Below are positions 47,894 to 64,000 of a DNA stretch of 64,000 nucleotides, piece after piece. The stretch is from the NCBI GenBank assembly GCA_005518205.2, contig RFFC02000002.1, positions 62,001 to 126,000 of the forward strand, given 5' to 3'. A model generated the notes under the pieces. It had not been told where the DNA came from, did no database searches, and worked only from the letters and a program-made list of their open reading frames with translations. Source of the DNA: Hormoscilla sp. GUM202 (GTDB taxonomy: Bacteria; Cyanobacteriota; Cyanobacteriia; Cyanobacteriales; Desertifilaceae). The position numbers and the translations under genes were made by a program. The stretch's first letter is position 1; each line of letters begins with the position of its first letter.

Positions 47894-49918
47894 GAAGTTG
47901 CTCAATATGTTGGTGGGGAGTGATTTCCACACGAGAGTAGCTCCTGCAGCTTTTTAAACAGGAGCTGATGTCGCACTTAATGAGTCTGTCCTTTATAACA
48001 AGGAGCTGTAACACCCTTGGTGCTTAGGTGGAAACTACACAAGCGAGACTTGGAGTCAATGGTTTATGTTTATGTTGGTTTTGGCGGCTGCATCTGTTGA
48101 ATTAGCGTGGACAACGCTGGCATCTTGAAAGATTTGGAAATTCGATCCTTAATGTACGAATAAAAATTCACTCCGTTTTTGCGGCAGGTGTCAACCAGAG
48201 CCAAAAACACTTCCCACGCCTGAGTCCCCTGTAGAGTGCGGGTTCCATTGGAGATTTTGCGCTTAATCACATACTCCCGGACTGTCCGCTCTGCCTCATT
48301 ATTGTCAAGAGGAACTTCAGGAAAATCTAGAACTAATAGTAAATAAGGCTTCTTCTGTTTTGTTAAATCAATTCTATGATCTAAAGCACTGTATCCGGTT
48401 TGACGGGAAAACAATTTGTCAAATTCGGTTTCAAGCAACAGTTTTTGTTGTCGCTGCTCTTCTGTGCTTTGCTGTTGATAGGCTTTGAGTTGATAATAGT
48501 AAATCCAAAAATAAGAGAGAAATTGTGCCAGGCTTTTTTGATGAGAGGGAACCAGAGGAGTCAGCTTTTCGTAGTGTCGTCCTTCATGAATCCAGCATAA
48601 ACTACGATGGTTCGTCTGGTTGTGAAATTGTCCCGCGTCATCAGCCACCAAAATATCTATGTAGTCCCCGAGCTGCTTTTTCTTCTTGTCAGGCAAAATA
48701 CTGTCAACTAAATCATCTGATTGAACAACTGCTAATTCAGTTGGATCCAACTGCAATTCGTTTAACATTTGGAGAACTGTTTCAGAGTTTTTGCGCTCTC
48801 TGGTAAAAAAACTGCTATAGTAAGGATTGCAGAGTGTGAATACATAGCAATTTTTCCCATTAACCCGCATCCCCGTATCATCAATTTGGTGATAACTGGT
48901 ACTGCCCAGTCCCGCTTCTAAAATAGCATTTCGTTCTTCAGTAAATTCTCTTAAATATTGCCGAGTTATTAAGTTAGATATTTTTCCCGCCGAGATTACT
49001 ATTCCCTGAGACTGCAACAATTTAAGAATCTTTTCTTCTGGCACTCGTAACTGATAATACAAAGTGAGAACAAATGCTTCGAGTTCACTCCCGTAAGATT
49101 TGCCTTTTAATCCTTGCGGCAACTGGGCTTCGTAAAATTTCTCCGTACTAGGTGAATAGAGTCTTTCTAGTCGATAAATAACCGTGTCTGTTTTAAATAT
49201 AATATTTTGAATTGTTACTTCTCGGTAGCCTCTATGGGTGATATCTGACGGCAAGTTACTCCGAGCCAGTTTGATAACCTCTTCTCTGTCAATATGAATA
49301 AGTTGGCGACGTTCCTGGGGGGGGGTTTTCGGTTTTTTCTTTTTTCGCTCTCGACTATTGGGCTGCTCTGGTTTGGCCTCCGCAGAAGTATCAGCTTTAG
49401 AAGTATCAGCTTTGGCTTGAGGTTTGATGTCAGGTTTTCCCTTGTGCCCTTTGAGCGCGGCTATTTCATCTCTCAATCGTTGATTGTCAGCTTTCAATTC
49501 AAGGTTTTGGCTGTATAGGTCTTCTAGGTAATTGAGTAACCGCTGCAAAACTTCCCGACTTTTTGGGTCGAGATTCTCTGTGTCTTGGTCGAGGTCAGCA
49601 AGCCAATTCTTAGTCATGTCTTCCAACTTACTACTTATTTATCGAATTTGTCAACCCTGGGCGCGGGATTTTGAAAAAAATCAGCTGTCGCGCATCTCAA
49701 CTGCATATTCGGGCGCTCGGCTGCCGACTCACCACTTCGAGGTCAAAACCCCCCACCCCGTAAGCATTTGAGAAGTTTTCGCTCCTCAAAAATTGCTCTT
49801 GTCCTGTTAGGCATTCCGAGGCAGTACAAGGGCTGTTCACTCCAGTCCGATGGCCCGAGTAACTATGCAGTACCGGCAGTACCCATATTCCTTCACCACC
49901 AATATCTTGAGCAATTAC
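47894..49918. mobile_element. Complete IS66-type (ISBst12-like) insertion sequence
   Basis: 2025 bp. Imperfect inverted repeats start GAAGTTGCTCAATATGTTGG (left) and GTAATTGCTCAAGATATTGG (right, inward); GTAA is the usual IS66 end. CGTCCACT is duplicated at 47886-47893 and 49919-49926, the 8-bp duplication expected for IS66. It carries a single transposase gene and no tnpA/tnpB, as in the ISBst12 subgroup. A second copy starts at the left window edge, so the element is multi-copy and probably recent. Confidence 0.95.
48070..49626 (-). CDS. IS66-family transposase
   Basis: 518 residues, apparently intact. An N-terminal coiled coil (LNYLEDLYSQNLELKADNQR) is followed by a charged linker (AKADTSKADTSAEAKPEQPN) and a zinc-finger-like region. 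The DDE core has YHQIDDTGMRVNGKNCYVFT (first Asp), ILVADDAGQFHN with CWIHEGRHYEKLTPL (second Asp region) and PEVPLDNNEAERTVREYVIK (Glu), then the IS66 C-terminal block NGTRTLQGTQAWEVF. The CWIHEGRHYEKL variant in place of CWAHxRR is typical of ISBst12-like members. It acts on the element's own ends. Confidence 0.92.
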   Translation of the reverse strand: MEDMTKNWLADLDQDTENLDPKSREVLQRLLNYLEDLYSQNLELKADNQRLRDEIAALKGHKGKPDIKPQAKADTSKADTSAEAKPEQPNSRERKKKKPKTPPQERRQLIHIDREEVIKLARSNLPSDITHRGYREVTIQNIIFKTDTVIYRLERLYSPSTEKFYEAQLPQGLKGKSYGSELEAFVLTLYYQLRVPEEKILKLLQSQGIVISAGKISNLITRQYLREFTEERNAILEAGLGSTSYHQIDDTGMRVNGKNCYVFTLCNPYYSSFFTRERKNSETVLQMLNELQLDPTELAVVQSDDLVDSILPDKKKKQLGDYIDILVADDAGQFHNQTNHRSLCWIHEGRHYEKLTPLVPSHQKSLAQFLSYFWIYYYQLKAYQQQSTEEQRQQKLLLETEFDKLFSRQTGYSALDHRIDLTKQKKPYLLLVLDFPEVPLDNNEAERTVREYVIKRKISNGTRTLQGTQAWEVFLALVDTCRKNGVNFYSYIKDRISKSFKMPALSTLIQQMQPPKPT

Positions 49919-50595
49919 CGTCCACTGACTCGGTATGCCAGTGGACCGTGATTTTGGGGTTATGCAAGACTCGGTCTTGCATGGCCTTAGAAGCCCGCAT
50001 CTGGTCCCGGCGCACTAGCAGATGCACGTGAGATCCATACTTGGTCAGATAGACTACTTCTTCTGCCGCCGTGTCACCAGCACCAATTACCACCAACTCT
50101 ACTCCCTTAAATATAGGACTGGCACCATCACAAATCGCACAAGCCGAGATGCCCTGATTCCAGAACTTTTCCTCAGAGGGCAGTTCCAATCGTTTTGCTG
50201 TGGCACCGGTGGCGATGACAATGCTGTGGGTGAGTAATGCCCGTTCGCGCGATCGGGCAGTAAAGGGACGCTGGCTCAAGTCAACAGATACCACATCTTC
50301 AGTATATAGCTCCGCCCCCCAGCGCACCGCTTGAGCCTTCATTCTGTCCATCAGTTGCGGGCCCGTAATGCCGTCGGGGAAGCCAGGAAAATTCTCCACT
50401 TCCGTAGTTGTCATCAGCTGACCGCCAGGAAGACCGCCCATTTGGTAGCCTTCAAAGACGATCGGTTTGAGGTTGGCACGACCAGCGTAGATCGCCGCCG
50501 TGTAGCCAGCAGGACCAGAACCAATGATTACCAAGTTTTCTACTGTCGGGCTTGCCATAGCAGTTATCCCAACTCATAATGACTACGACTAATAT

Positions 50596-52586
50596 CCCAC
50601 ATTCCGCACGACAAATTGTAATCTATCATGTATTACGAAAAAAATCATTTTGTGCCACAAATGTAGTACGTAGTGAAGAAGGTATCTGAGTATAAATACT
50701 CAGACATGCTCCCGATCTGCCCCAAAATCCCTGGCATTGAGTTATAATGGAACGTGTTTGAAGTTCAGATACAGAATGATGGAAATTACCAATCTAGATC
50801 ATCTGGGATTAGTGGCCGGAATCATCGATGACATAGGAATAGAATTGATAATTAACCGGCGATTGCCAAAACACTCATCAGAGAAAATTAGTTCTGGTCA
50901 AGTTGTTAAAGCAATGATAATAAATGCCTTAGGATTAGTGTCAGCACCATTATACCTGTTTTCCAGATTTTTTGAAGGAAAAGCAATAGAACACTTAATT
51001 GGAGTTGGAGTCAAACCGGAATATTTGAATGATGATAAATTGGGAAGAGTTATGGATGAGCTATATGAAATAGGAATTGGAGAAGTTGAGATAGCGTTAT
51101 CAGTATTAAAAAAATATCAAATCAAAAGGGAAACAGCACATAGAGATTCAAGTTCATTTCATGTTCATGGAGAGTACAAAACATCATCTGTAGTCGAACC
51201 TAGGCCAATAAAAATAACTCATGGATATTCAAGAGACCATAGACCAGATTTGAAACAATATACAATGCAGTTAATTTGTTCAGGAGATGGAGGTATTCCT
51301 TTATGGATAAAGATGGGAGATGGAAATGCCTCAGACCAAAAAGAAATTCCTTTAGCAATAACAGAGTTCAAAAAAACTTTTGAATTTTCAGGGTTAATGG
51401 TAGCCGATGCAGCATTATATACGCAAGACTGCAAATTTTAGGTGATATCAAGTGGTTATCGCGAGTGCCACTTACTATTAAAGCAGCCAAGAAGTTGGTC
51501 ACGGAGGCGGATACAGAGAATTTTATTTCTTGCGAACAGCCAGGATATCGTTACCTAGAAGTAAGGCAAAACTATGGAGATATAGAACAAAGATGGCTAG
51601 TAATTGAAAGTCAGGAGCGTCGGGAATCAGACCTCAAAAAATTGCAGGATAAAATTGACAAAGATTTACGTGTTGCCAAAAATAAATTAAAAGAATTAAG
51701 TTGTCGTGAATTTGCTTGTGCCCCGGATGCTATAGTAGCGGCAAATAAGCTATTAAAAAAATCATTGTATCATCAACTAACGGACATAACAACTCAATCG
51801 ATTTTCACTAAGTCTGAGAGTGGAGAGTCTGATTGCCACTATCAAGTCCAAGCAACTATTAGGGAATGTCTCGAACAAGTGCAAGAGAAAAAAAACCAGG
51901 CAGGACGCTTTATTTTAGCAACTAATCAACTCGATGAATTAGCGCTAAATCCCGAAAAAATGCTCTCCATAAAAACGAGCAGCGTGGAGCGTTGTTTTAA
52001 GTTTTTTAAATCGCCCATGTTTTTTGCTGATAGTGTATTTATTAAATCGCCAAAACGCATTGAAGTTTTAGGTTTAATTATGGCCTTATCTTTGTTAGTG
52101 TATAAGGTAGCAGAGCGACAGATAAGGCAAACACTTAAACGAACAGGTTCAGGAGTAAAAAATCAGTTAGGTCGGCTGACGGATAGACCAACTCTTCGTT
52201 GGATATTTCAATGTTTTCAGTCAATTCATATCTATATCGATCGCGGGAGCAAACAGATTTCCAATATTAATGAGGAGCGGTTGCACTTTTTGAAGTTCTT
52301 TCCACCAGCATGTCAGCGGTACTATTTGCTGGAGTCAATTATGTAAAAATACACATTCAATAATGAGTAGAACTTAGGGATATTCATCTCTGAGTAGCTC
52401 TCTTGTGAGCAATAATAGGGAAATTTTAGGAATTTTATGTCAAGTAAGTTTTTGTTGTTGGTTGGTATAAGCTTTTGGGTATTGTAAGGGACGTTGCGCC
52501 GGATATTTGTCTGTATTTGTGATAGTGTAAGAGTTGAAAAAACCAGTGTTTTATTTATGTAGTACACTTGTCGTGCGGAATGTAGG
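50596..52586. mobile_element. Complete IS1634-family element with 6-bp TSD
   Basis: Inverted repeats CCCACATTCCGCACGACAA (left, 50596) and CCTACATTCCGCACGACAAG (right, inward) bound a 1991-bp element. TAATAT is duplicated at 50590-50595 and 52587-52592, matching the 5-6 bp typical of IS1634. It lies 37 bp upstream of the NTRC start codon and so may remove the NTRC promoter. Its own transposase gene is frameshifted. Confidence 0.92.
50776..52346 (+). pseudogene. IS1634-family transposase, frameshifted
   Basis: The first frame starts MMEITNLDHLGLVAGIIDDI and runs to AALYTQDCKF. Comparison with the fragment at 14815-15412 (ALYTQDNLQYLGNIEWL) shows loss of 4 nt around 51429, after which the second frame (GDIKWLSRVPLTIKAAKKLV) runs to HFLKFFPPACQRYYLLESIM. 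The DDE domain is otherwise complete: HRDSSSFHVHGEY and VADAALYTQD carry Asp residues, and SSVERCFKFFKSP may carry the Glu. Total length would be about 523 residues. Confidence 0.9.
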
Positions 52587-53160
52587 TAATATAGTTCAAT
52601 TGATGAAAAAAAGCAATCAAGACTGTCTGCCCCCGTAGGTTAAACTGTAGGGTAGGCACTGCGGTAGGCACTGCCCACCATCGGGTATAATGCTTTTGGG
52701 GTTTTGGTGAAAAATGCCTAGCAATTAGGAATTATGCAAACGGACAACAAAAATCAAGAAATCCGAGATAAAATACGTCAGCAATTTGACAGCGCTCCTT
52801 ATGGCAACGTACCGCTAGATCTATCTCCCAAAAAAAATGCAGCTTTGCTCTATCTTCACAATCTAGTTACCCCTTACCATCTCAGAAATCAAAAGATTAT
52901 CAACCCAGAAGGGAAAGTAATTCTCGACGCAGGCTGTGGCAGTGGCTATAAATCCTTAGTTTTGGCCACGGCCAACCCCGGGGCCAAAATTATCGGTATC
53001 GATATTTCCGAGGAGTCGCTGAAACTAGCACGCCAACGCTTGGCACACCACGGGTTTGCGGAGGCAAAATTTTATGCTATGCCTTTGGAGGAGTTACCTA
53101 GCCTGGGGATAGAGTTTGATTATATCAACTGTGATGAAGTCCTTTACCTGTTGCCTGATA

Positions 53161-54339
53161 AGTAGTTGGACAAAATTAATTGCACAAAATCGAGAAAACT
53201 TGTTATACTAGATATAGCTACTCGTACATGTAGCAGATTTTTGTCAAACTAACGGGGAGTCGGTTTTCATGCTCATCCCCGGCCAGATATATTTGACATA
53301 ATATGACGATAAATTAGGAGAAATTAAGAAGGATTTTAATGCGCGAAATAAATGAGCTTTCTGCAAAATTGCTCTTACGAATTTATCATCAAAGTCGCCA
53401 TCATCAAGTTCGTCAAAGAGCACATTGTTTACTTTTGCGAGATCGAGAACATAAAAAAGTTAAAGAACTTATGGAAATCTTTGATGTTAGTTATAGAACT
53501 ATCTACAATTGGATTAAAAATTGGGATTCCGAGGGAATGGTCGGACTATATAATAAGTCTGGAAGAGGTCGTAAGCAAACCTTTAGTCTCGAACAAAAAG
53601 AAAAAATTAAAGCCTGGACTGAAGAAGAACCGAGGCAATTAAAAAAAGTGGTGGCTAAAATCAAAGAAGAATGGGGAATTGAAACAAGTGTTAAAACTGT
53701 TCAGAGAATATTGAAAACAATGAATATGAGTTGGCATCGGATGCGTAAAGGGGTAGCTGTCAGCCCCCCAGCTCAAGAGTATGAGGAAAAAAAAGCACAA
53801 CTTGAACAACTGAAACTGTTAGACAATTTGGGGGAAATTAATTTGTATTATTTAGATGAAAGTGGGTTTTATTTAATCCCTTGTGTCCCTTATGGATGGC
53901 AAAATATTGGGGAATATATAGAAGTACCTAGTCGGAGTAGCCGCAGATTAAATGTATTAGGAATAATGAATCGCCACAATCATTTAGAAGCGTATGTATC
54001 TACTCAAAATATTAATTCAGATGTAGTCATAGCTTGTATCGATGCATTTTTTCCCACGAGAATGGAAAAGCAAACAGTAATTGTAGTAGACCAAGCATCT
54101 GTCCATACTAGTGATGCTATTCAAGATAAGATTGAAGAATGGAAAGAACGCAATATTACTATATTCCATCTCCCCACTTATTCACCTCATTTGAATTTGA
54201 TTGAAATCTTGTGGCGGTTTATTAAATACGAATGGATTGAAATCGATGCTTATTCTTGCTGGAAAAACTTAGTTGATTCCGTTGAAACAATCATAAAAAA
54301 TTTTGGAGAAAAATATGTAATTAATTTTGTCTGACTACT
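53161..54339. mobile_element. Complete IS630-family element with TA duplication
   Basis: Inverted repeats AGTAGTTGGACAAAATTAAT (left) and AGTAGTCAGACAAAATTAAT (right, inward). TA stands on both sides (53159-53160 and 54340-54341), the usual IS630/Tc1-mariner target duplication. 1179 bp with one transposase gene. A solo end of the same element lies at 21163-21190. Confidence 0.95.
53339..54334 (+). CDS. IS630-family transposase
   Basis: 331 residues, intact. An N-terminal winged helix-turn-helix (KVKELMEIFDVSYRTIYNWI, then GLYNKSGRGRKQTF) binds the ends. The DDE catalytic core has NLYYLDESGFYLIPC (first Asp), VIVVDQASVHTSD (second Asp) and PTYSPHLNLIEILWRFIKYE (Glu). One continuous frame, unlike many IS630 elements with programmed frameshifts. 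The element may still be mobile. Confidence 0.95.
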   Translation: MREINELSAKLLLRIYHQSRHHQVRQRAHCLLLRDREHKKVKELMEIFDVSYRTIYNWIKNWDSEGMVGLYNKSGRGRKQTFSLEQKEKIKAWTEEEPRQLKKVVAKIKEEWGIETSVKTVQRILKTMNMSWHRMRKGVAVSPPAQEYEEKKAQLEQLKLLDNLGEINLYYLDESGFYLIPCVPYGWQNIGEYIEVPSRSSRRLNVLGIMNRHNHLEAYVSTQNINSDVVIACIDAFFPTRMEKQTVIVVDQASVHTSDAIQDKIEEWKERNITIFHLPTYSPHLNLIEILWRFIKYEWIEIDAYSCWKNLVDSVETIIKNFGEKYVINFV

Positions 54340-55341
54340 TATATCTGTGGGCTTGCAGGCAATGAAGTCCGTGCTGAAACCCGAGGGCATAATTCGCGCA
54401 AATCTCCATAGCAGCTTGCAGCGTCAGCCATTTTTCCGGGCACAGGAATTTTTCCGCATGCTGGGTTTAATGGATGGCGCCCTCCACAAACAAGAGATTG
54501 AACTGGTGCGGGAAACCATGAAAAATGTCAAAGACCATATCTATCTTAAGATCAAGGCTTGGCGCTCAGATTATGAAACCAACGATGAGCTCGTGCTGGC
54601 CAATCACTTGCTTCAGGGTGACAAGGGTTATAACATCCCAGAAATGTTTGCGGCCCTAAGATCCGCTGATTTGGAGTTCGTCAGCATGGTGCAGTGGCCG
54701 GAGTGGGACTTACTGGCTATGTTTAAGGACGTGGATGAGTTACCGATATCCGTGGCCATGGCGTTCGGCGAGATGTCTGCCGAAGAGCAGCTCCATGCCC
54801 ACGAACTGCTACAGTCTGCCCAGCGTCTGCTGGACTTCTGGTGCGGTCATCCAAATGAAGGTCAGTCCTTTATGCCAGTGGAGGAGTGGACCGAGTCAGA
54901 CTGGCGACAAGCACGAGTACATCTACACCCCCAGCTGAGAACTGCCGAACTGAAACAGGAGCTGATGGCTCATCTGACACAGCTCGAGGGACTGAATATA
55001 AATCAGCATCTGCCCATTGCTCAACAGCCCGTCGTTCTCCTAGACAGTGCGGTGGCTGCATGCATCCTACCGCTGCTAGACGGCGGGCTACCGATGATGT
55101 CACTGGTGGAGCGCTGGCTGCAGATGAGGCCGCGAGATCCCGTGACCCTGGAGTCAAGCACGGAACCGGAAGCATTTGCAGTGGTTAAGCAGATGTTGAG
55201 CAGCTTAGCTCAGTTTGGGTATATTCTGCTGGAACGCTGACGGGGAGGGCGTTAGAGATTTTTTTTACGGGAAGTGATATGAAAAGGGAAGAAAGTGGGT
55301 AAGTTAAAAATAAGGAGTTAGAAGCAAAGGAGAGACTACTC

Positions 55342-55872
55342 ATGAAGACTGAATTTAAGACCAAATTCCTGCAACACTTGATCGATAAGAAGCAAGACAA
55401 GGGCTTCACGCTGATTGAACTGCTGGTGGTGATCATCATCATCGGGATTCTGTCCTCCATTGCCTTGCCCTCCTTCCTCGGCCAAGCAAACAAAGCCAAG
55501 CAGTCCGAAGCGAAAGCCTATGTCGGTTCAATGAACCGGGCACAGCAAGCCTACTACCTGGAAAAAGGTGAATTGAGTGACAATCTTGATATTTTGGGTC
55601 TTAGCATTCAGACAAAAACTGCTAACTACACATATGGCATAACTGATGGGGGGACAGGCAGTAGTGCTGTAACGAACTGGGGTACTGCAATTGATAAAAA
55701 TGCAGTACTGAAGTCCTATGTAGGAGGGGTAAATAGAGGCGGAAGCACCGTTGCTGTCGCAACCACGTTTACTGTCTTGTGTGAAAGCGACAAGGCTAAT
55801 GAAGCTAAATCTGCAGCAACATATGACGAAACAACCGGTCCAAGTTGCCCTACGAATTATACAAAGATTTAA
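55342..55872 (+). CDS. pilA: Type IV pilin / pseudopilin (PilA-like)
   Basis: 176-residue prepilin. The class III leader ends in DKKQDKG|FTLIELLVVIII, with the PilD cleavage site between Gly and Phe and Glu at +5. The hydrophobic helix (IIIIGILSSIALPSFLGQAN) follows, then the globular domain with the cyanobacterial SMNRAQQAYYLEKGELSDN block, and a C-terminal Cys pair (VLCESDK, PSCPTNY) likely forming the D-region disulfide. It would be assembled into motility pili. It lies 101 bp after the methyltransferase gene and upstream of two glycosyltransferase genes on the same strand; its Ser/Thr-rich head could be glycosylated. A weak AGGAG-like site precedes the start. Confidence 0.93.
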   Translation: MKTEFKTKFLQHLIDKKQDKGFTLIELLVVIIIIGILSSIALPSFLGQANKAKQSEAKAYVGSMNRAQQAYYLEKGELSDNLDILGLSIQTKTANYTYGITDGGTGSSAVTNWGTAIDKNAVLKSYVGGVNRGGSTVAVATTFTVLCESDKANEAKSAATYDETTGPSCPTNYTKI

Positions 55873-56049
55873 TCTCTAGAGGCTGAGGTTTGAGCTAATA
55901 GATTTTCAAGATTTTTAGAAGCGGGCAAATTACTCTGTTCGCTTCTTATCTATAGCAGTTAAGTTAAATGCTACAAATAAACCAGGAAAAATAGGGAATT
56001 TGTTGTTAATTAATACAGATAGACCATTCTTGATAACTTGAGGATTGTG

Positions 56050-58290
56050 ATGAGTGAGGATGTGGCCACGATTATGGCTCGAGAGCAGCCACCCTTCATT
56101 GAATATATAATAAAAGGAGAATATAGTAAAGCCTGCAAGCTTTATCAGCAGGCAATTGAAGCCGCTCCAGAGGTGAGGTCAAACTATTGGTATTTGGGAT
56201 TGGCGCTGCTACTGGAAGGGAAAGAAGTAGAAGCCCAAGTTACTTGGATGCTAGCCATAGGAGAGGCAGAGGCAGAAGAAGTTGAGGAGTGGACGGCGGA
56301 ATTAGTTGAGGTTTTGCAGACAGAAGCAGAGCGTCGGGAAAGTTTATTAGATTATGAATTAGCCTGGGCAATAAGGCAGCATGTACGGGAAATTAACCCC
56401 AATGACATAAATAACATTTTAAGGCTCGTGCAACTTTCCCTTAAGCAGAAGATGTTAACTGAAGAACAGTTGACCGAGTGGGGAGTAATAGAGACGCTCA
56501 AGTCAGATCCAAAAGCAGAAGTTAAGTACGATCTATTGTTAGAAGTGTTGCAGGTTTTTTTAGAGGAGGCCCCGCTGGATCCCCTGCTAATTGAGTTTGT
56601 AGAAGCCTGCTTGCCTCAGATCCGCGAACCTCTACCTTTCATTAAAATATCGATAGAGGGCTGCGTAAGGATTTCTCAGAATCTACAGCGACCTGACTTA
56701 GCAATAACACTGGGCAAATTATGTTTAAGAATAGCTCCCGAAGATGCAGATATATGCATGCATATATCTGCTTACTATCAGAATGCCGGTCAGTACGATC
56801 GGGGAATAGAAATGGCGAAAAAGGGCTATTCACTCATGCAAACATTACCAGGTAAACTGTACGCAAACCATGTACTAATTCGGGGGTTAATGGGTGCTGG
56901 CGGACGTTGGTCAGAGGCAGTTGATGTCTGGGCTCGACAATTATCATTAGTAATTTCCATGTGCGAGGAAAAAACTTACCTTGATGATTTAGCAATATGT
57001 TTTCACATCTACACTACAACCTATTTCTTCCCCTATTTTAGAGACGCTCCAAGAAATAATCGCCAGCTTCGTAATCAGGTAGCACAGTTGTGCCAAATTC
57101 ATGTAGAACTCCACGAACAAGAGAGAATAGAGCGATACCGCAAAAGATATTTATCTAGCTTAACAACTAATAGTACAAAACCGTTGAGAATTGGGTATTT
57201 ATCTCATTGCTTAAGGTCTCATTCGGTTGGCTGGCTAGCTAGATGGCTATTTGAGTATCACGATCGCGAAAAATATGATATATATGGCTATTTTATAAAC
57301 TATGGAGCGAAGATAAAAGACCCGTTGCAGCAGTGGTTCGTCCAGCACGTGAGTTATGCCCGCAAACTAGGTCTGACATGCGAGGAAGCAGCAGAAAAAA
57401 TTTGTGAGGATGAAATAGATATTTTGGTCGATCTCGACAGCATGACGCTAGACGTTGCCTGTGGGGTGATGGCAATGAAACCGGCTCCAGTCCAAGTGAC
57501 GTGGTTGGGTTGGGATGCTCCGGGCATACCAACGGTAGATTACACGATCGCAGATCCCTATGTGTTGCCCGAGGATGCTCAGGATTACTATAGCGAAACC
57601 ATCTGGCGACTGCCCAAAACCTATATAGCGGTAGATGGGTTTGAGGTGGCGGTGCCAACGCTGCGACGCGAGCAGTTGGAGGTCGAGAGCGATGCTGTGT
57701 TGTATTTGAGTTCACAGAGGGGGTATAAGCGTCATCCAGATACAGCACGACTGCAACTGAGGATTATTAAAGAGGTGCCGAATAGCTATTTCTTGATTAA
57801 AGGTTCGGGCGATCGAGATACAATTAAAAGCTTTTTTATCCAGATGGCGGAAGAAGAGGGGGTGAGTCCCGATCTCCTGCGGTTTCTGTCAGCAGCGCCA
57901 TCAGAAGCAACTCACCGGGCTAACCTAGGGATTGCGGATGTGGTGCTAGATACTTATCCCTATAATGGAGCGACGACGACGCTGGAAACCCTATGGATGT
58001 GCGTGCCCTTGGTGACGCGAGTGGGAGAACAATTTGCGGCTCGTAACAGCTATACTATGATGATGAATGCGGGCATCACGGAGGGCATTGCTTGGACAGA
58101 TGAAGAGTATGTAGAGTGGGGGGTTCGCTTGGGGGAAGATCCAGTGCTGCGACAGCAAATATCCTGGCGACTGCGCCAGTCACGACAGACAGCACCCCTG
58201 TGGAATGCCAAGCAGTTTGCCCGCGAGATGGAGAATGCTTACGAACAAATGTGGCAAAGATATGTGGAATCTAGTAATGGTAATAGGTAG
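56050..58290 (+). CDS. SPINDLY-type O-GlcNAc transferase-like protein (GT41) with TPR
   Basis: About 746 residues. The N-terminal half has TPR-like helices (YSKACKLYQQAIEAAPEVRS, LGLALLLEGKEVEAQVTWML). The C-terminal half is a GT41 catalytic domain: IGYLSHCLRSHSVGWLARWL (His at the position of the OGT active-site loop, about residue 390), APVQVTWLGWDAPGIPTVDY (about 479), YKRHPDTARL (Lys of the UDP site) and DTYPYNGATTTLETLWMCVP (about 633). It probably adds a sugar to Ser/Thr of a protein. The ATG at 56050 is preceded by TTGAGGATTGTG; an upstream in-frame TTG is less likely. Placed 180 bp after pilA, so the pilin or a surface protein is a candidate substrate. Confidence 0.9.
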   Translation: MSEDVATIMAREQPPFIEYIIKGEYSKACKLYQQAIEAAPEVRSNYWYLGLALLLEGKEVEAQVTWMLAIGEAEAEEVEEWTAELVEVLQTEAERRESLLDYELAWAIRQHVREINPNDINNILRLVQLSLKQKMLTEEQLTEWGVIETLKSDPKAEVKYDLLLEVLQVFLEEAPLDPLLIEFVEACLPQIREPLPFIKISIEGCVRISQNLQRPDLAITLGKLCLRIAPEDADICMHISAYYQNAGQYDRGIEMAKKGYSLMQTLPGKLYANHVLIRGLMGAGGRWSEAVDVWARQLSLVISMCEEKTYLDDLAICFHIYTTTYFFPYFRDAPRNNRQLRNQVAQLCQIHVELHEQERIERYRKRYLSSLTTNSTKPLRIGYLSHCLRSHSVGWLARWLFEYHDREKYDIYGYFINYGAKIKDPLQQWFVQHVSYARKLGLTCEEAAEKICEDEIDILVDLDSMTLDVACGVMAMKPAPVQVTWLGWDAPGIPTVDYTIADPYVLPEDAQDYYSETIWRLPKTYIAVDGFEVAVPTLRREQLEVESDAVLYLSSQRGYKRHPDTARLQLRIIKEVPNSYFLIKGSGDRDTIKSFFIQMAEEEGVSPDLLRFLSAAPSEATHRANLGIADVVLDTYPYNGATTTLETLWMCVPLVTRVGEQFAARNSYTMMMNAGITEGIAWTDEEYVEWGVRLGEDPVLRQQISWRLRQSRQTAPLWNAKQFAREMENAYEQMWQRYVESSNGNR

Positions 58291-58292
58291 CA

Positions 58293-58778
58293 CTACCGGA
58301 GTCCCCGATCGCGTAACAGGGCCTCAGCCCAAGCAGCGTCTTCTGCTTGCAGCCTGGGCACCGGCTCCCTACTGTAATCTACTGCTAAGTGATATCTGGC
58401 CCGCTCATATACCCCATTTAACAGAACTTGTAACTCTAAAAGCGGCTCTGCATCTGGTGAGTCCAAAGGTAAGGTAAATGAAGGAATTTCCTCCCGGACA
58501 GTGAAAGTATACAGATCGGCTAGAGGACGGCGATCGCCCCTACAGATCGAAATCCGATAATCTGCCGATGGCATTTCACCTACAATGGGCAGGGGTTTCC
58601 CACCTCTGAGCAAATCAATCTCTACCAAGTGCGTTACAGAAGCCAGCACTTGTTGCCGCTTCAGTTCGTATAGCCGGCGTCCTTCTTTAGATCTTTTATT
58701 GGTAGGGGAAAGAACTTCAATAACCGTTACTACTGCACCGGTTGGTACTTCGGTAATTTCTAAATAGCTTTCTCTCAC
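58293..58778 (-). pseudogene. DUF4058 protein, 5' truncated
   Basis: 161 residues of the cyanobacterial DUF4058 family (VVTVIEVLSPTNKRSKEGRR, ASVTHLVEIDLLRGGKPLPI, YTFTVREEIPSFTLPLDSPD). The usual N-terminal ~100 residues (a MPSPFPGMNPYLE-type start) are absent. The frame begins only with a GTG at 58776-58778, exactly where an unrelated plus-strand fragment starts. It ends 2 bp after the convergent O-GlcNAc transferase stop codon. Function of the family is unknown. Confidence 0.8.
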
Positions 58779-59028: not shown

Positions 59029-59053
59029 GCCCTCACCCTAAAGGGTGGGGCTA
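59029..59053. repeat. CCCTCACCCTAAAGGGTGGGG palindrome
   Basis: TGCCCTCACCCTAAAGGGTG followed by GGGCTAC resembles GCCCTCACCCTTTAGGGTGA at 42831 inside the MITE; an AGCCCGCCGGCGCGGGCT palindrome follows at about 59063. The gap from 58981 to 59214 contains no gene. Confidence 0.75.
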
Positions 59054-59214
59054 CATGAACTAAGCCCGCCGGCGCGGGCTCTCCTCCTAAAGCGCTCGAC
59101 TTTGAAAGACGATCGCTGCGGCAGCAGGATGGGGTATAATAAATATGAGGCTCGCAGATGAACGGTGAACGATCGCAAATAAAGGGCCCATCAGGTTACC
59201 AAGGTAGGAGAGAT

Positions 59215-59595
59215 ATGTCAGAAAAGCCAATTTGGCATCGGGTTCTTGCTATAGTAGGGGGAGGGGCATTTATCGGCTCGACAGTGTTTGCCATTACATC
59301 CGTATTCCGCGATGCGCTGACACAACCGGTCTCAAGTGAAACGACAGAGCCGACAATAGAGGAAAGACTGGCAACGCAAGAGAGAGGGTATGAAAAAGTT
59401 TTACAGCGAGAGCCGCAAAATCAGGTAGCATTAGAGGGACTGGTGTTCGTGCGGCTCCAGATGCAGGATGCTAGAGGTGCGATCAGACCTTTGTCAAAGC
59501 TAGTGCAGTTGTTTCCCGAACGTAGGAATTATAAAATATTATTAGAGGAACTACAAGAGCAGGTGGGAGAGAGTCAAGCAGAAACAAGATCGTAA
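59215..59595 (+). CDS. Small membrane-anchored TPR-like protein
   Basis: 126 residues from MSEKPIWHRVLAIVGGGAFI. I chose this ATG because GGTAGGAGAGAT precedes it; an ATG at 59158 would add 19 polar residues. One membrane helix (about 9-30), then a short Thr/Glu-rich linker and a TPR-like helical hairpin region (LATQERGYEKVLQREPQNQV, ALEGLVFVRLQMQDARGAIR, PLSKLVQLFPERRNYKILLE). Cyanobacterial proteins of this shape often sit beside glycosyltransferase or secretion genes. The giant glycosyltransferase frame starts 38 bp downstream, so the two are probably co-transcribed. Exact role unknown. Confidence 0.82.
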   Translation: MSEKPIWHRVLAIVGGGAFIGSTVFAITSVFRDALTQPVSSETTEPTIEERLATQERGYEKVLQREPQNQVALEGLVFVRLQMQDARGAIRPLSKLVQLFPERRNYKILLEELQEQVGESQAETRS

Positions 59596-59632: not shown

Positions 59633-62600
59633 ATGAGCAAAAATATCATAGTATATACAGACGATCATGGACTTGGCGGAGTGGCACAATACAACCACCT
59701 GATTTTAAATGGATTGGCAAAGCGGGGTTACCAGGCAGTTTGCGTCCAAACAAAAACATCAAATCCTCTGGTGACGAGTCAAGTGGAAATGGGAATTAAA
59801 CACATATGGTTAAAATTTGATACAGTTGAAGAGTTTGGGAAAAGTTTAAATAATCACGCAGAAGTTCAAAGTATTTTTAGAAGTGCGCAGCCAAATGCAA
59901 TTATTTTTAGCGACTCCTGTCCTTTTTCAAATTTTGCTGCTAAGCAGGTTGCTATGCAAATGGGAATCCCATATATAGTAGTGATAGGGTTTGTGGCACC
60001 ATACCTAGCAGAAAGGTTTGCTGCCTACTTAGAGCAACTAAATCATCAATATAAGCAAGCAAAAGCGGTTATTGTAAAGTCGAGAGAAAACCTGAAGTTA
60101 TTACATCAGCTATTTAGATTACCACAAGAGAAGGGAAAAGTTATCTATTCAGGACGTCCAGAGGAGTATTTTATCACCGGGTATCCATCAGTTCGCGAAG
60201 GTCTGCGCCAAGAGTTTGGTATACCATTAGATGCAGTGGTTTGTTTTACAGCAGCTCGCTTAGCATCGGTAAAGGGCTACCAATATCAACTAGAGGCAAT
60301 TAAATATCTAAAGGAAAATCCAGTATGGGATAAAATTTATTTTGCCTGGGCAGGTGCGGGAAGTTTAGAAGCTCCACTGAAGAAAGAAGTAGAAGCGCAA
60401 GGGGTAATTGAAAAAGTAAAGTTTTTGGGAGATCGTTGGGATATCCCAAATTGCCTAGATGCAAGCGATATTTTTGTTTTGCCCTCGGAAGCTGAAGGAA
60501 TGCCATTGGCAGTAATAGAAGCAATGGCAAAGGGATTACCAGTTATTGCTTCAGCGGTAAGCGGTATCCCAGAACAGTTGGGCGATACTGGCAAGTTGCT
60601 AACCTCTCCAACAATTGATCCGCGAGCTACAGTAGGAGAGTTAGTCAGGACTATTGAAGCTTGGACTGAGAATGTAGAATTACGTCAAGAAATTGGTCAG
60701 GCTTGCAAGAAGCGAGCAGAAAAGATGTTCAGGGGAGAAAGAATGGTCAAAGAGTACATGGAAGAAGTAGAGCATGCTTTATTACCTGCGGGAGATTATG
60801 TTTCACCAGGGTTGTCAATCATTAGACCCGATGAAAACTTCCCAAACATGATAGCTGTGGACCCTAGTAGTTCGTCCTGGACTTACGCACGTAAAGACAT
60901 TCCACATAACAGATATGTAGACAAGCGAGAGCTAGCAGTAGGATTTACTAATAGAGATGAAGCTCATATTCTTTACAATAGTGCGCTCCAGTTTAAGGGG
61001 AAGAGATGTTTGGAGATCGGCTGTTGGTTAGGATGGTCAGCCTGTCATTTGGCTTCAGCAGGAGTTGAACTAGATGTCATAGATCCATTGTTAGCCAGAT
61101 CGGAGTTTTATGAAAGTGTGAGTAGTTCGCTCAAGGCAGCAGGGGTGTGGGAAAAGGTAAATTTAATAGCAGGCTATAGTCCCAATGAAATAGAAGAATT
61201 GGGGCAGCAACAGCAGCGCAAATGGTCAGTGATTTTTATTGATGGTAATCACGAAGCACTAGCACCTCTGAATGACGCGATCGCATGCGATAAATTTGCA
61301 GAACAAGATGCTTTAATTCTCTTCCACGATCTAGTATCACCAGATGTAGCGCAAGGATTGAACTACCTGAAGGGAAAAGGTTGGAAGACAATGATCTACC
61401 AAACAGCTCAAATCATGGGAGTTGCTTGGCGCGGGGATGTTGAACCAGTTATCCACCAGCCAGATCCACGAGTTCAATGGCACTTGCCAGTGCATCTGCA
61501 AGATTATTATATCAGCGATGGGGAAACTTCACAGTCAATCGGGACAGTAGCAAGGTTAAAGAAATCCAGCAGCGCTAGCGAGGATGAATTTCAGTCGATT
61601 CTTGCGTATATAGCACCCTACAGCCTTTTGAGTAAAGCGCGATTATTCTCGCTCTACTCTTTAGCAAAGCAAATTTGTTTAGAGGATCTACCTGGAAACT
61701 TTGTGGAGTGTGGAACCTGTAAAGGGGGATCGGCAGCACTTTTAGCTGCTGTTATCAAACTATATAGCCAGCGCCCGCGATTGCTATACGCCTTTGACAC
61801 TTTTGAAGGAATGCCAGAACCTATAGATATCGATCGGCATAATGGCATACATGCAAATGTGACCGGGTCTGGTGCAGGGACTCTAAAGGCTCCAATTTCC
61901 GAAAACTTAGATATAGTTTGTCAGTCTTTAAATGTAAGAGATATCGTTGTACCCGTTCAAGGAATATTTGCTCAGACTCTTACAGAATTAAAGTCAGAGA
62001 TAGGCAGAATTGCTTTTCTACACGCTGATGCTGACTGGTACGAGTCAAGAATGGATATATTTAACAATCTGTATGATATTGTTGTTCCTAACGGGATCAT
62101 ACAGGTTGACGATTATGGTTATTGGGAGGGTTGTAAGAAGGCTATCCATGATTTTGAACGTAGTCATGGTGAATCATTTGCTCTTCACGTTATTGATGAT
62201 ACTGGAGTGTGGTTCCGAAAAGAAGATGCTACTACTAGCATTAGAGAGGCAGCGGCGGAATACTCAGCTTCCCAGAGTCATCGGGTTGAAGAGGTGATCG
62301 CCGATCAGTTGTCGTTGCCTTGCGAACTCAATAAGATTCCAGATTGGTTGCTAAATGACTATATTCAGTGCATATTTAAATCTCCAAGCTTGTTTAAGAA
62401 GAAAGGGCAGGTGAATAGATACTACAACCACATGCAGAAATGGGTGAATTACATACACAGCAATGTTGTAGGCAGCCATAATTCAAAGATTTGGCAGCAG
62501 GTGGCGTTATCATTTACTCAAAATGCTAACTTTATTCCTCTATATTTTACAGATAAAAACCTGAAAGAGGTCTATACAAAACGTGCTGACATAATGGAGT

Positions 62601-64000
62601 TTACCCTCAAACAATTCGGCCATCAGGTTGATTACGATTTTCCTGAACTAGCTGCAGATAGAAAAAAAATACGCCTGGGCGTGTTGGTTGTCAAGTTTGT
62701 ATCTGGGACAGAAGTATTTACTATAGTATCTGCTTTTGAGCATCTAGATAGAAATAAATTCGAGATTATTTTATATGCCCTACAACTAGACTCTAATCCA
62801 GTAGAGCAGTATTGTCGAGAGCGTGCAGATCGACTGGTTCAATTACCCAGCGATTTACTTAGTCAAGTACAAACTATACGTGCAGATAACCTGGATATCC
62901 TTCTGGTAGGAACAAATGTTACGGCAGTAACACACCAGATTACTTTACTAGCGTTACACCGATTGGCTCGTCTACAGCTCAGTATATTTAACTCTCCTGC
63001 GACAACAGGTATGCGAACTGTAGATTACTACATTTCTGGTAAATTATCAGAGCCAGTAGCGGATGCACAACAGCAGTATCGCGAACAGTTAGTAACGATT
63101 GAAGGCTGCGGTTTTTGCTTTAACTATACAATCCAACCAACACCTGCAACGCTTCAACCTAATAGAGATAACCTCGGCATAACGAAGCAGGCTGTAGTAT
63201 TTATGTCAGGCGCTAACTTTAATAAAATTATTCCCGAATTAAGGGAGAGTTGGGCAAAGATTATTGCCGAAGTGGCCAATTCTGTTTTAGTCTTATATCC
63301 TTTCAGTCAGAGCTGGAGTTCTTCATATCCAGAAAAATTATTCTTGAACTGTATGAGGAAGATATTTGCAGAACAGGGCATTGAGGAAAATAGACTGATT
63401 TTATTAGAGACTATCCCCAGTCGCTCAGATGTTAAAGAATATTTGAAGCTAGGTGATGTATATCTAGACTCATATCCTCATTCGGGAAGTCACACAGTAG
63501 TCGATCCTTTAGAAGTTGGATTACCTCCTATAGTTAGGGATGGTAATTCTGTAAGATCTAAGCAGGGCGCAGCAATCCTGCGAGAAATAGAGATGCCAGA
63601 GTTGATCGCAGCAGATGAAGAAGATTATATCAGATTAGCGATCGCTCTAGGAAATAACCCAGAATTACGCAAAGAAAAGAGCGACCATATCCAGGAAAGA
63701 ATGCGGGGTAACCCCAGATTTCTGGATAGTCGCGATTACTCTGCTCAAATGGGAGCTTTATTCCAAGAACTACTCCAAAAATACCAGACGGATACTCTCA
63801 ATAAAAACTTCCGGTTAAGGGATATCAACCTGATTATATTTCCTGACTGGAACCAGTCAGAAGAATCCCTCTACCAGGATTTCGCCAGTGTCATTAGCAC
63901 CCTAGTCGCTCGCCCGGATAAAGGTCATGTAACCCTCTTGGTAGACACCACCAACATTTCGGAGGAGGATGCGGATATGGCTCTATCCAGCATAGTGATG
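59633..64000 (+). CDS. Giant multidomain glycosyltransferase/methyltransferase (3' end beyond window)
   Basis: ATG at 59633 after GAGGAAAAAATAAA; I translated 1456 codons to the window edge without a stop. Domains: (1) GT4 glycosyltransferase, about 1-385, MSKNIIVYTDDHGLGGVAQY, donor motif EAEGMPLAVIEAMAKGLP at about 285. (2) Class I methyltransferase, about 425-590, CLEIGCWLGWSACHLASAGV and VIFIDGNHEALAPLNDAI. (3) TylF/macrocin-type O-methyltransferase, about 660-870, FVECGTCKGGSAALL, YAFDTFEGMPEP, IAFLHADADWYESRMD and IIQVDDYGYWEGCKK. (4) GT41/SPINDLY-like domain, about 900-1385, FNSPATTGMRTVDYYISGKL and YLDSYPHSGSHTVVDPLEVG. The His of the OGT active-site loop is not evident in VLVVKFVSGTEVF. 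(5) Start of a further domain, DINLIIFPDWNQSEESLYQD (about 1396). Likely builds and O-methylates a surface glycan or glycoprotein. Confidence 0.9.
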   Translation, partial: MSKNIIVYTDDHGLGGVAQYNHLILNGLAKRGYQAVCVQTKTSNPLVTSQVEMGIKHIWLKFDTVEEFGKSLNNHAEVQSIFRSAQPNAIIFSDSCPFSNFAAKQVAMQMGIPYIVVIGFVAPYLAERFAAYLEQLNHQYKQAKAVIVKSRENLKLLHQLFRLPQEKGKVIYSGRPEEYFITGYPSVREGLRQEFGIPLDAVVCFTAARLASVKGYQYQLEAIKYLKENPVWDKIYFAWAGAGSLEAPLKKEVEAQGVIEKVKFLGDRWDIPNCLDASDIFVLPSEAEGMPLAVIEAMAKGLPVIASAVSGIPEQLGDTGKLLTSPTIDPRATVGELVRTIEAWTENVELRQEIGQACKKRAEKMFRGERMVKEYMEEVEHALLPAGDYVSPGLSIIRPDENFPNMIAVDPSSSSWTYARKDIPHNRYVDKRELAVGFTNRDEAHILYNSALQFKGKRCLEIGCWLGWSACHLASAGVELDVIDPLLARSEFYESVSSSLKAAGVWEKVNLIAGYSPNEIEELGQQQQRKWSVIFIDGNHEALAPLNDAIACDKFAEQDALILFHDLVSPDVAQGLNYLKGKGWKTMIYQTAQIMGVAWRGDVEPVIHQPDPRVQWHLPVHLQDYYISDGETSQSIGTVARLKKSSSASEDEFQSILAYIAPYSLLSKARLFSLYSLAKQICLEDLPGNFVECGTCKGGSAALLAAVIKLYSQRPRLLYAFDTFEGMPEPIDIDRHNGIHANVTGSGAGTLKAPISENLDIVCQSLNVRDIVVPVQGIFAQTLTELKSEIGRIAFLHADADWYESRMDIFNNLYDIVVPNGIIQVDDYGYWEGCKKAIHDFERSHGESFALHVIDDTGVWFRKEDATTSIREAAAEYSASQSHRVEEVIADQLSLPCELNKIPDWLLNDYIQCIFKSPSLFKKKGQVNRYYNHMQKWVNYIHSNVVGSHNSKIWQQVALSFTQNANFIPLYFTDKNLKEVYTKRADIMEFTLKQFGHQVDYDFPELAADRKKIRLGVLVVKFVSGTEVFTIVSAFEHLDRNKFEIILYALQLDSNPVEQYCRERADRLVQLPSDLLSQVQTIRADNLDILLVGTNVTAVTHQITLLALHRLARLQLSIFNSPATTGMRTVDYYISGKLSEPVADAQQQYREQLVTIEGCGFCFNYTIQPTPATLQPNRDNLGITKQAVVFMSGANFNKIIPELRESWAKIIAEVANSVLVLYPFSQSWSSSYPEKLFLNCMRKIFAEQGIEENRLILLETIPSRSDVKEYLKLGDVYLDSYPHSGSHTVVDPLEVGLPPIVRDGNSVRSKQGAAILREIEMPELIAADEEDYIRLAIALGNNPELRKEKSDHIQERMRGNPRFLDSRDYSAQMGALFQELLQKYQTDTLNKNFRLRDINLIIFPDWNQSEESLYQDFASVISTLVARPDKGHVTLLVDTTNISEEDADMALSSIVM

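Follow-up and report, generated by a model that had tools for sequence, protein, structure and literature searches.

The stretch of DNA analyzed here (the window: 64,000 nucleotides, G000:C2:62001-126000, within the 6.87-Mb draft genome of Hormoscilla sp. GUM202) ends inside a large gene that starts at position 59633 on the forward strand and encodes a modular protein of 1528 amino acids (aa). Judging from sequence, we consider it fairly probable that this protein is a soluble (cytosolic) enzyme that assembles glycans, encoded at a locus for pilin O-glycosylation, and that it would extend and O-methylate a glycan started by an OGT. It consists of a glycosyltransferase of family GT4, two methyltransferases, a SPINDLY-like GT41 domain, labeled GT41L in the following, and a C-terminal domain of about 140 residues, labeled CTD. 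The modules are arranged as follows (S-adenosylmethionine is abbreviated SAM):

59633..60787, forward strand: GT4 glycosyltransferase module (aa 1-385; Pfam Glycos_transf_1, EX7E motif, PDB relatives)
60833..61567, forward strand: class I methyltransferase module, Methyltransf_24 or MT24 (aa 401-645; Pfam, SAM motif I)
61595..62230, forward strand: TylF/MycF-type sugar O-methyltransferase module (aa 655-866; Pfam TylF, PDB, motifs)
62297..63790, forward strand: GT41L (aa 889-1386; a helical part of about 100 aa plus a GT41 domain of GT-B type; Pfam, PDB, structural model)
63797..64000, forward strand: start of the CTD (aa 1389-1528, continuing to L009:5216 on an extended stretch; FPDW motif at aa 1403-1406)

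An original prediction, made from the letters of the window, had described a single open frame of at least 1456 codons that runs on past the window, and genome DNA bears this out: the stop lies 219 nt beyond the window end (frame L009:633-5219, stop codon L009:5217-5219 on the extended stretch), and the final 72 codons complete the CTD as a fifth module. All four domains named at the time, i.e., GT4, a class I methyltransferase, TylF and a SPINDLY-like domain, were recovered when the translation of window:59633-63998 was searched with the hidden Markov models of Pfam, each scoring well beyond the cut-off. While the observation was thus confirmed, its interpretation is supported in part: the domains, the idea of an assembly line, the link to pili and the loss of an active-site His hold, whereas the assignment of protein O-glycosylation to this chain is less likely.

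Catalytic motifs were found in each of the first three modules. The GT4 module matches Glycos_transf_1 (E 4.7e-33, aa 189-361) and Glyco_transf_4 (aa 15-174), its EX7E motif reads EGMPLAVIE (aa 288-296), and 2jjm is the best of its GT4 relatives in the PDB. The second module matches Methyltransf_24 (E 2.1e-23, aa 460-566), carries LEIGCWLG as SAM motif I (aa 460) and weakly matches the O-methyltransferase 4ymg. For the third module, the Pfam match to TylF (E 8.4e-36, aa 662-863) is accompanied by PDB matches to 4cdz (2e-20) and to the mycinamicin III 3''-O-methyltransferase MycF (4x7v, 2e-18), and the Mg-site Asp motifs DADWYE (aa 799) and VDDY (aa 825) are present.

With regard to the authenticity of the fusion, a whole-chain query of 59 relatives did not return a second full-length copy, only differently combined pieces that break near residues 385, 865-890 and 1390. 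A single frame with GT4-MT24-TylF ahead of GT41L, as here, also exists in Coleofasciculus (L142, 1807 aa), Rhizonema (L103, 2634 aa) and Laspinema (L130, 2674 aa). Residues 1-876 of the big protein align as a single block with the Laspinema chain (59%), residues 34-863 with that of Rhizonema (62%) and residues 2-635 and 647-865 with that of Coleofasciculus (67-69%); in all three the aligned front blocks precede GT41L within the same chain, and in L103 and L142 the CTD as well. In the Laspinema and Rhizonema genomes, additional modules are inserted ahead of GT41L. Because the same module order occurs in one frame in independent genomes, the GT4-MT24-TylF-GT41L fusion is a genuine architecture common to several genera, present in this genome in a short version. 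Artificial joining of separate genes into the long frame, during sequencing or assembly, would fit with the occurrence of related modules as separate genes or in other combinations in other species, but this is highly improbable in view of the conserved order, on the basis of which a frameshift or misassembly was rejected, and of a codon-position G+C pattern that is roughly uniform along the frame, its short last block excepted.

GT41L matches Glyco_transf_41 (E 8.2e-26, best stretch aa 1177-1373), and its nearest solved relative by sequence is the protein O-fucosyltransferase SPINDLY from Arabidopsis (7y4i, 6e-29). Structure prediction gave a SPINDLY fold (predicted local distance difference test score, pLDDT, 82), with SPINDLY structure 8dti as the best Foldseek match (2.6e-23). 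The tetratricopeptide repeat (TPR) superhelix at the N-terminus of GT41 enzymes was not found: no TPR family of Pfam matched in the big chain, and the helical part of about 100 residues takes this place. An identity with HMW1C/N-glycosyltransferase (NGT)-type enzymes was rejected, the similarity being weak (NCBIfam NF049992, 29.8 bits versus a cut-off of 1000; PDB E 2e-5 or worse). When one genome per species was scanned, 149 relatives of GT41L were found; counts given in the following cover the best 80 of these and lean toward close ones. In a phylogenetic tree, GT41L forms one clade (support 100/100) on a long stem, separate from canonical TPR-GT41 proteins and from SPINDLY.

In SPINDLY, mutants of K665 as well as H495A and H495F are inactive, S496A, Y744A and T748A are strongly impaired, and the donor phosphate has been proposed as the base (PMC9715652). 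The big protein has Gly1025 at the position of His495 (H558 in OGT), in agreement with the earlier suspicion that the active-site His is missing, and a His is present there in just 2 of the 80 relatives compared with 30 of 30 canonical neighbors; Gln, Met, Gly, Ser or Ala are found in most cases. Lys1198, on the other hand, corresponds to the diphosphate-binding catalytic Lys665, which is kept in 80/80. The nucleobase-stacking His728 is replaced by Val, Ile or Leu in all 80 relatives (Val1267 in the big protein, which furthermore has His1283 and His1287 at positions 744 and 748 and a Lys at position 491). Within the family, Glu occupies position 497 in 80/80, His position 491 in 73/80 and Thr position 748 in 63/80 sequences. 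A sub-branch from the same cyanobacterial family (G005, G008, G009), which came from another search and is not among the 80, has lost the Lys665 equivalent as well. In close pairs, the ratio of nonsynonymous to synonymous substitutions (dN/dS) amounts to 0.07-0.24 for GT41L versus 0.12-0.28 for the front enzymes, with GT41L the lowest of the chain in 14 of the 15 pairs, which points to purifying selection on this domain.

GT41L thus probably has an important function, and ordinary OGT chemistry appears improbable. As the defining His was looked for and is absent, we do not claim that GT41L is a working member of the OGT/SPINDLY enzymes. The original prediction had proposed acceptor binding without catalysis; the loss of His is confirmed, whereas the view that the domain is simply dead does not hold, since the present protein and all relatives counted retain the Lys on which the activity of Arabidopsis SPINDLY depends. 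For the same reason GT41L may be purely binding or also catalytic, and a donor-binding or altered catalytic role is possible. In its strongest form the latter would make GT41L a glycosyltransferase that functions through a remodeled active site, in which the kept Lys binds a nucleotide sugar for transfer to sugar or peptide, the family-specific Glu at position 497 and usually the His at position 491 replace the lost His, and the whole protein is an enzyme with two glycosyltransferase and two methyltransferase activities. The conservation of Lys, Glu497, His491 and Thr748 and the low dN/dS favor this idea, and with the donor phosphate as the proposed base in SPINDLY, loss of the His need not abolish chemistry (PMC9715652). 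Against it stand the complete inactivity of H495A and H495F, the replacement of His728 throughout, the additional loss of Lys in the G005/G008/G009 sub-branch and the residues of the present protein at positions 491, 744 and 748, so that we regard it as a possibility to be taken seriously, albeit a somewhat doubtful one. With its His missing and an intact TPR-GT41 encoded next door, GT41L is unlikely to be the enzyme that initiates glycosylation of the pilin.

The CTD found no match in Pfam or NCBIfam and no sequence match in the PDB. In an alignment of 55 sequences, F, P, W and L are invariant. The linker to the preceding module measures about 3 residues after GT41L and about 14 after one type of GT4. 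The model of the CTD (pLDDT 85) is small and Rossmann-like and resembles a single lobe of a GT-B enzyme; Foldseek matches, including the GT-B lobes of Asp1, trehalose-6-phosphate synthase and XcOGT, are marginal (E 0.002-0.02, template modeling score about 0.5), and assignment to a known domain was rejected on these grounds.

Comparison of the relatives reveals GT41L as a constant chassis ahead of which front modules are swapped between species. Recognized enzyme domains precede it in 70 of the 80 proteins and comprise GT2, GT4, FkbM, TylF and other methyltransferases as well as, in L054, a polysaccharide pyruvyltransferase. The form with CTD (28/80) has a median length of 1543 aa and the form without CTD (52/80) one of 2191 aa, the longest chain reaching 3267 aa. 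The proposed assembly line is supported by related chains in which as many as five or six enzyme domains are joined and by the Rhizonema protein L103, whose CTD is followed in the same chain by a second TPR-GT41, its His-Ser and Lys motifs recognized by eye. This domain (aa 2240-2634) belongs to a third GT41 clade, apart from OGT and GT41L, whose members are also fused in L157 (L157:7264-11223) and adjoin a modular protein in L042 (L042:8695-12348). Apart from this, one protein without CTD (L071:6137-12859) carries three C-terminal helical repeats (aa 1790-2240) that resemble the helical part ahead of GT41L (WLxxDY motif); they are possible docking repeats. Named records are cyanobacterial with the exception of two contigs with GT41L that were assigned to Desulfonema limicola (L087) and Thiomargarita (L116), which may reflect binning errors or transfer. 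Judged by the named relatives of the big gene, the host is a cyanobacterium near filamentous forms.

The link to pili rests on the genes upstream of the big gene:

55342..55872, forward strand: type IV pilin (Pilin_GH; Pfam Pilin_GH 7.5e-27, N_methyl 1.3e-09)
56038..58290, forward strand: stand-alone TPR-GT41 of OGT/SPINDLY type (Pfam 9.1e-46)
59158..59595, forward strand: small TPR protein, 37 nt upstream of the big gene and conserved at the locus

In agreement with the neighbors originally named, a pilin gene thus adjoins a stand-alone SPINDLY-type enzyme, as is characteristic of a pilA-ogt locus. The catalytic-site residues of the latter (His, Ser, Lys, Tyr, Thr) are intact, and protein O-glycosylation, formerly ascribed to a module of the big chain, is more likely carried out by this separate enzyme. 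The big gene is followed by a convergent gene for a 266-aa TPR-like protein, a gene for a 157-aa TPR protein and a glycoside-hydrolase-like gene; like the small TPR protein, the 266-aa protein has a single hydrophobic segment at its N-terminus. Pilin or OGT is present at 22 of 24 loci longer than 15 kb that encode GT41L with CTD; of 19 additional loci with a CTD but no GT41L, 15 have pilin and/or GT41 within the stretch considered. In G005, G008 and G009 the same framework surrounds a GT41L-CTD protein and other sugar genes (in G009 a double methyltransferase, an NAD epimerase, a DegT aminotransferase and a GT8-like gene); in G004 and G007, from the same genus as these three, it encloses GT4-CTD proteins without GT41L, and in G002, from the genus of the window itself, the gene set is differently arranged. 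This pattern is that of a conserved site with turnover of glycan genes, and the conserved pilin-OGT-TPR locus as well as the literature support the link to pili already proposed.

On this basis we suggest the following sequence of events. The adjoining intact TPR-GT41 would attach a first sugar to Ser/Thr of the prepilin in the cytosol, the rear module of GT41L and CTD, with its SPINDLY fold and altered active site, would engage the glycopeptide, the tethered GT4 module would attach a further sugar, and the Methyltransf_24 and TylF modules would O-methylate sugar and may also cap the chain. Exchange of front modules would give every species its own pilin glycan. Substrate, reaction order and the holding role of GT41L are what we infer, and glycosylation in the cytosol ahead of export is assumed; HMW1C and the serine-rich adhesin systems are precedents for such an order. 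That L103 has a TPR-GT41 fused to its modular chain speaks for a common pathway.

Several observations weigh against this proposal. Conservation of the Lys argues that GT41L is more than a mere binding domain. A genome of the same genus, G001, keeps just a 148-aa CTD remnant at the locus, so the big gene is dispensable. The larger branch without CTD mostly resides away from pilin and OGT genes (9 of 34 long loci are near one), and the chassis is therefore not tied to pilin alone. Finally, the GT41L of the present protein deviates at 6 near-invariant family sites (median 1) and this copy may be drifting, although simple decay was rejected for the family on account of its low dN/dS. The distribution of the branch without CTD would also be compatible with a protein that builds or methylates another surface glycan, be it exopolysaccharide, hormogonium polysaccharide or a lipid-linked glycan, and has pilin and OGT as neighbors by chance or through co-regulation; likewise, the GT4 module resembles the polysaccharide glycosyltransferases TIGR03088 and EpsE in NCBIfam, every match being below cut-off. 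We consider this unlikely, as synteny with pilin/OGT is maintained across many families and the modular chains of L103 and L157 incorporate a GT41.

The proposed pilin-glycan enzyme has several partial counterparts. In published work, a pilA-adjacent Ogt is linked to PilA glycosylation, the result for Nostoc OgtA being cited via a review. The loci of Nostoc punctiforme OgtA and of the Synechococcus elongatus pilin glycosyltransferase are of the same type, with a pilin gene beside a TPR-GT41; that enzyme itself, however, is a TPR-GT41 alone, and no report of a big modular partner or of a GT41L-CTD chassis was found. Compared with Arabidopsis SPINDLY, GT41L shares the fold and the essential Lys665 but lacks the TPR array and the His495 equivalent, has His728 replaced and is fused to GT4 and methyltransferases. 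WsaE from Geobacillus stearothermophilus is trifunctional, with a methyltransferase and two rhamnosyltransferases (PMC2943079), and A064R from chlorovirus PBCV-1 unites two glycosyltransferases and a methyltransferase (PMC7019647). The former resembles the big protein as a soluble chain that unites a glycosyltransferase with a sugar O-methyltransferase to build the glycan of a glycoprotein, the latter as a single chain that carries out glycosyl transfer and methylation in sequence on a protein glycan. Both differ in having three domains and no reported GT41-like module or chassis, WsaE in addition in its lipid-linked acceptor chain and A064R in its viral origin, and both are compared here by domain content.

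While chains of glycosyltransferases with sugar methyltransferases and OGT-pilin loci are therefore already known, a family that combines a constant, catalytically altered SPINDLY paralogue with front modules that are exchanged was not found in a literature search that covered few subscription papers, and is apparently undescribed. As a broader generalization, to which we assign slightly less than even chances, cyanobacteria would possess a widespread class of glycan assembly lines (about 1000 to more than 3000 aa). Their universal loading/docking chassis would be a SPINDLY paralogue whose active site has been rewired, followed in some cases by a GT-B half-domain, and glycosyl-, methyl- and pyruvyltransferase modules ahead of it would be shuffled between species, diversifying pilin glycans in the manner of polyketide synthases. 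Cyanobacterial pilin glycosylation is known mainly via one enzyme, Ogt; the family offers a concrete, testable candidate for the steps of extension and methylation and ties glycan variation to module swapping ahead of a conserved chassis. As a natural GT41 clade in which one of two essential catalytic-site residues is removed and the other kept, GT41L furthermore probes the GT41 fold beyond its standard chemistry, and the proteins are a possible source of modular glycoengineering enzymes.

Upstream of the pilin gene, the methyltransferase named earlier as a further neighbor is present as methyltransferase-like sequence and not as an intact gene. Its two parts (52734-53165 and 54347-55240, forward strand) are separated by a transposase ORF (53339-54334, 331 aa, IS630-like by eye) and match one uninterrupted ORF of 444 aa in L042 and of 454 aa in L055. 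Farther upstream, in the regions 48070-50558 (reverse strand) and 50737-52346 (forward strand), a thioredoxin-reductase-like frame (49893-50558) looks shortened and is flanked by transposase-like ORFs. Between the OGT and small TPR genes lies an apparently truncated DUF4058 fragment (58293-58778, reverse strand; profile positions 102-253 of 254). A repeat of about 50 bases upstream of the small TPR gene (59029-59081) occurs in some 50 further copies in the genome (81-97% identical) and looks like a palindromic mobile or repetitive extragenic palindromic (REP)-like element.

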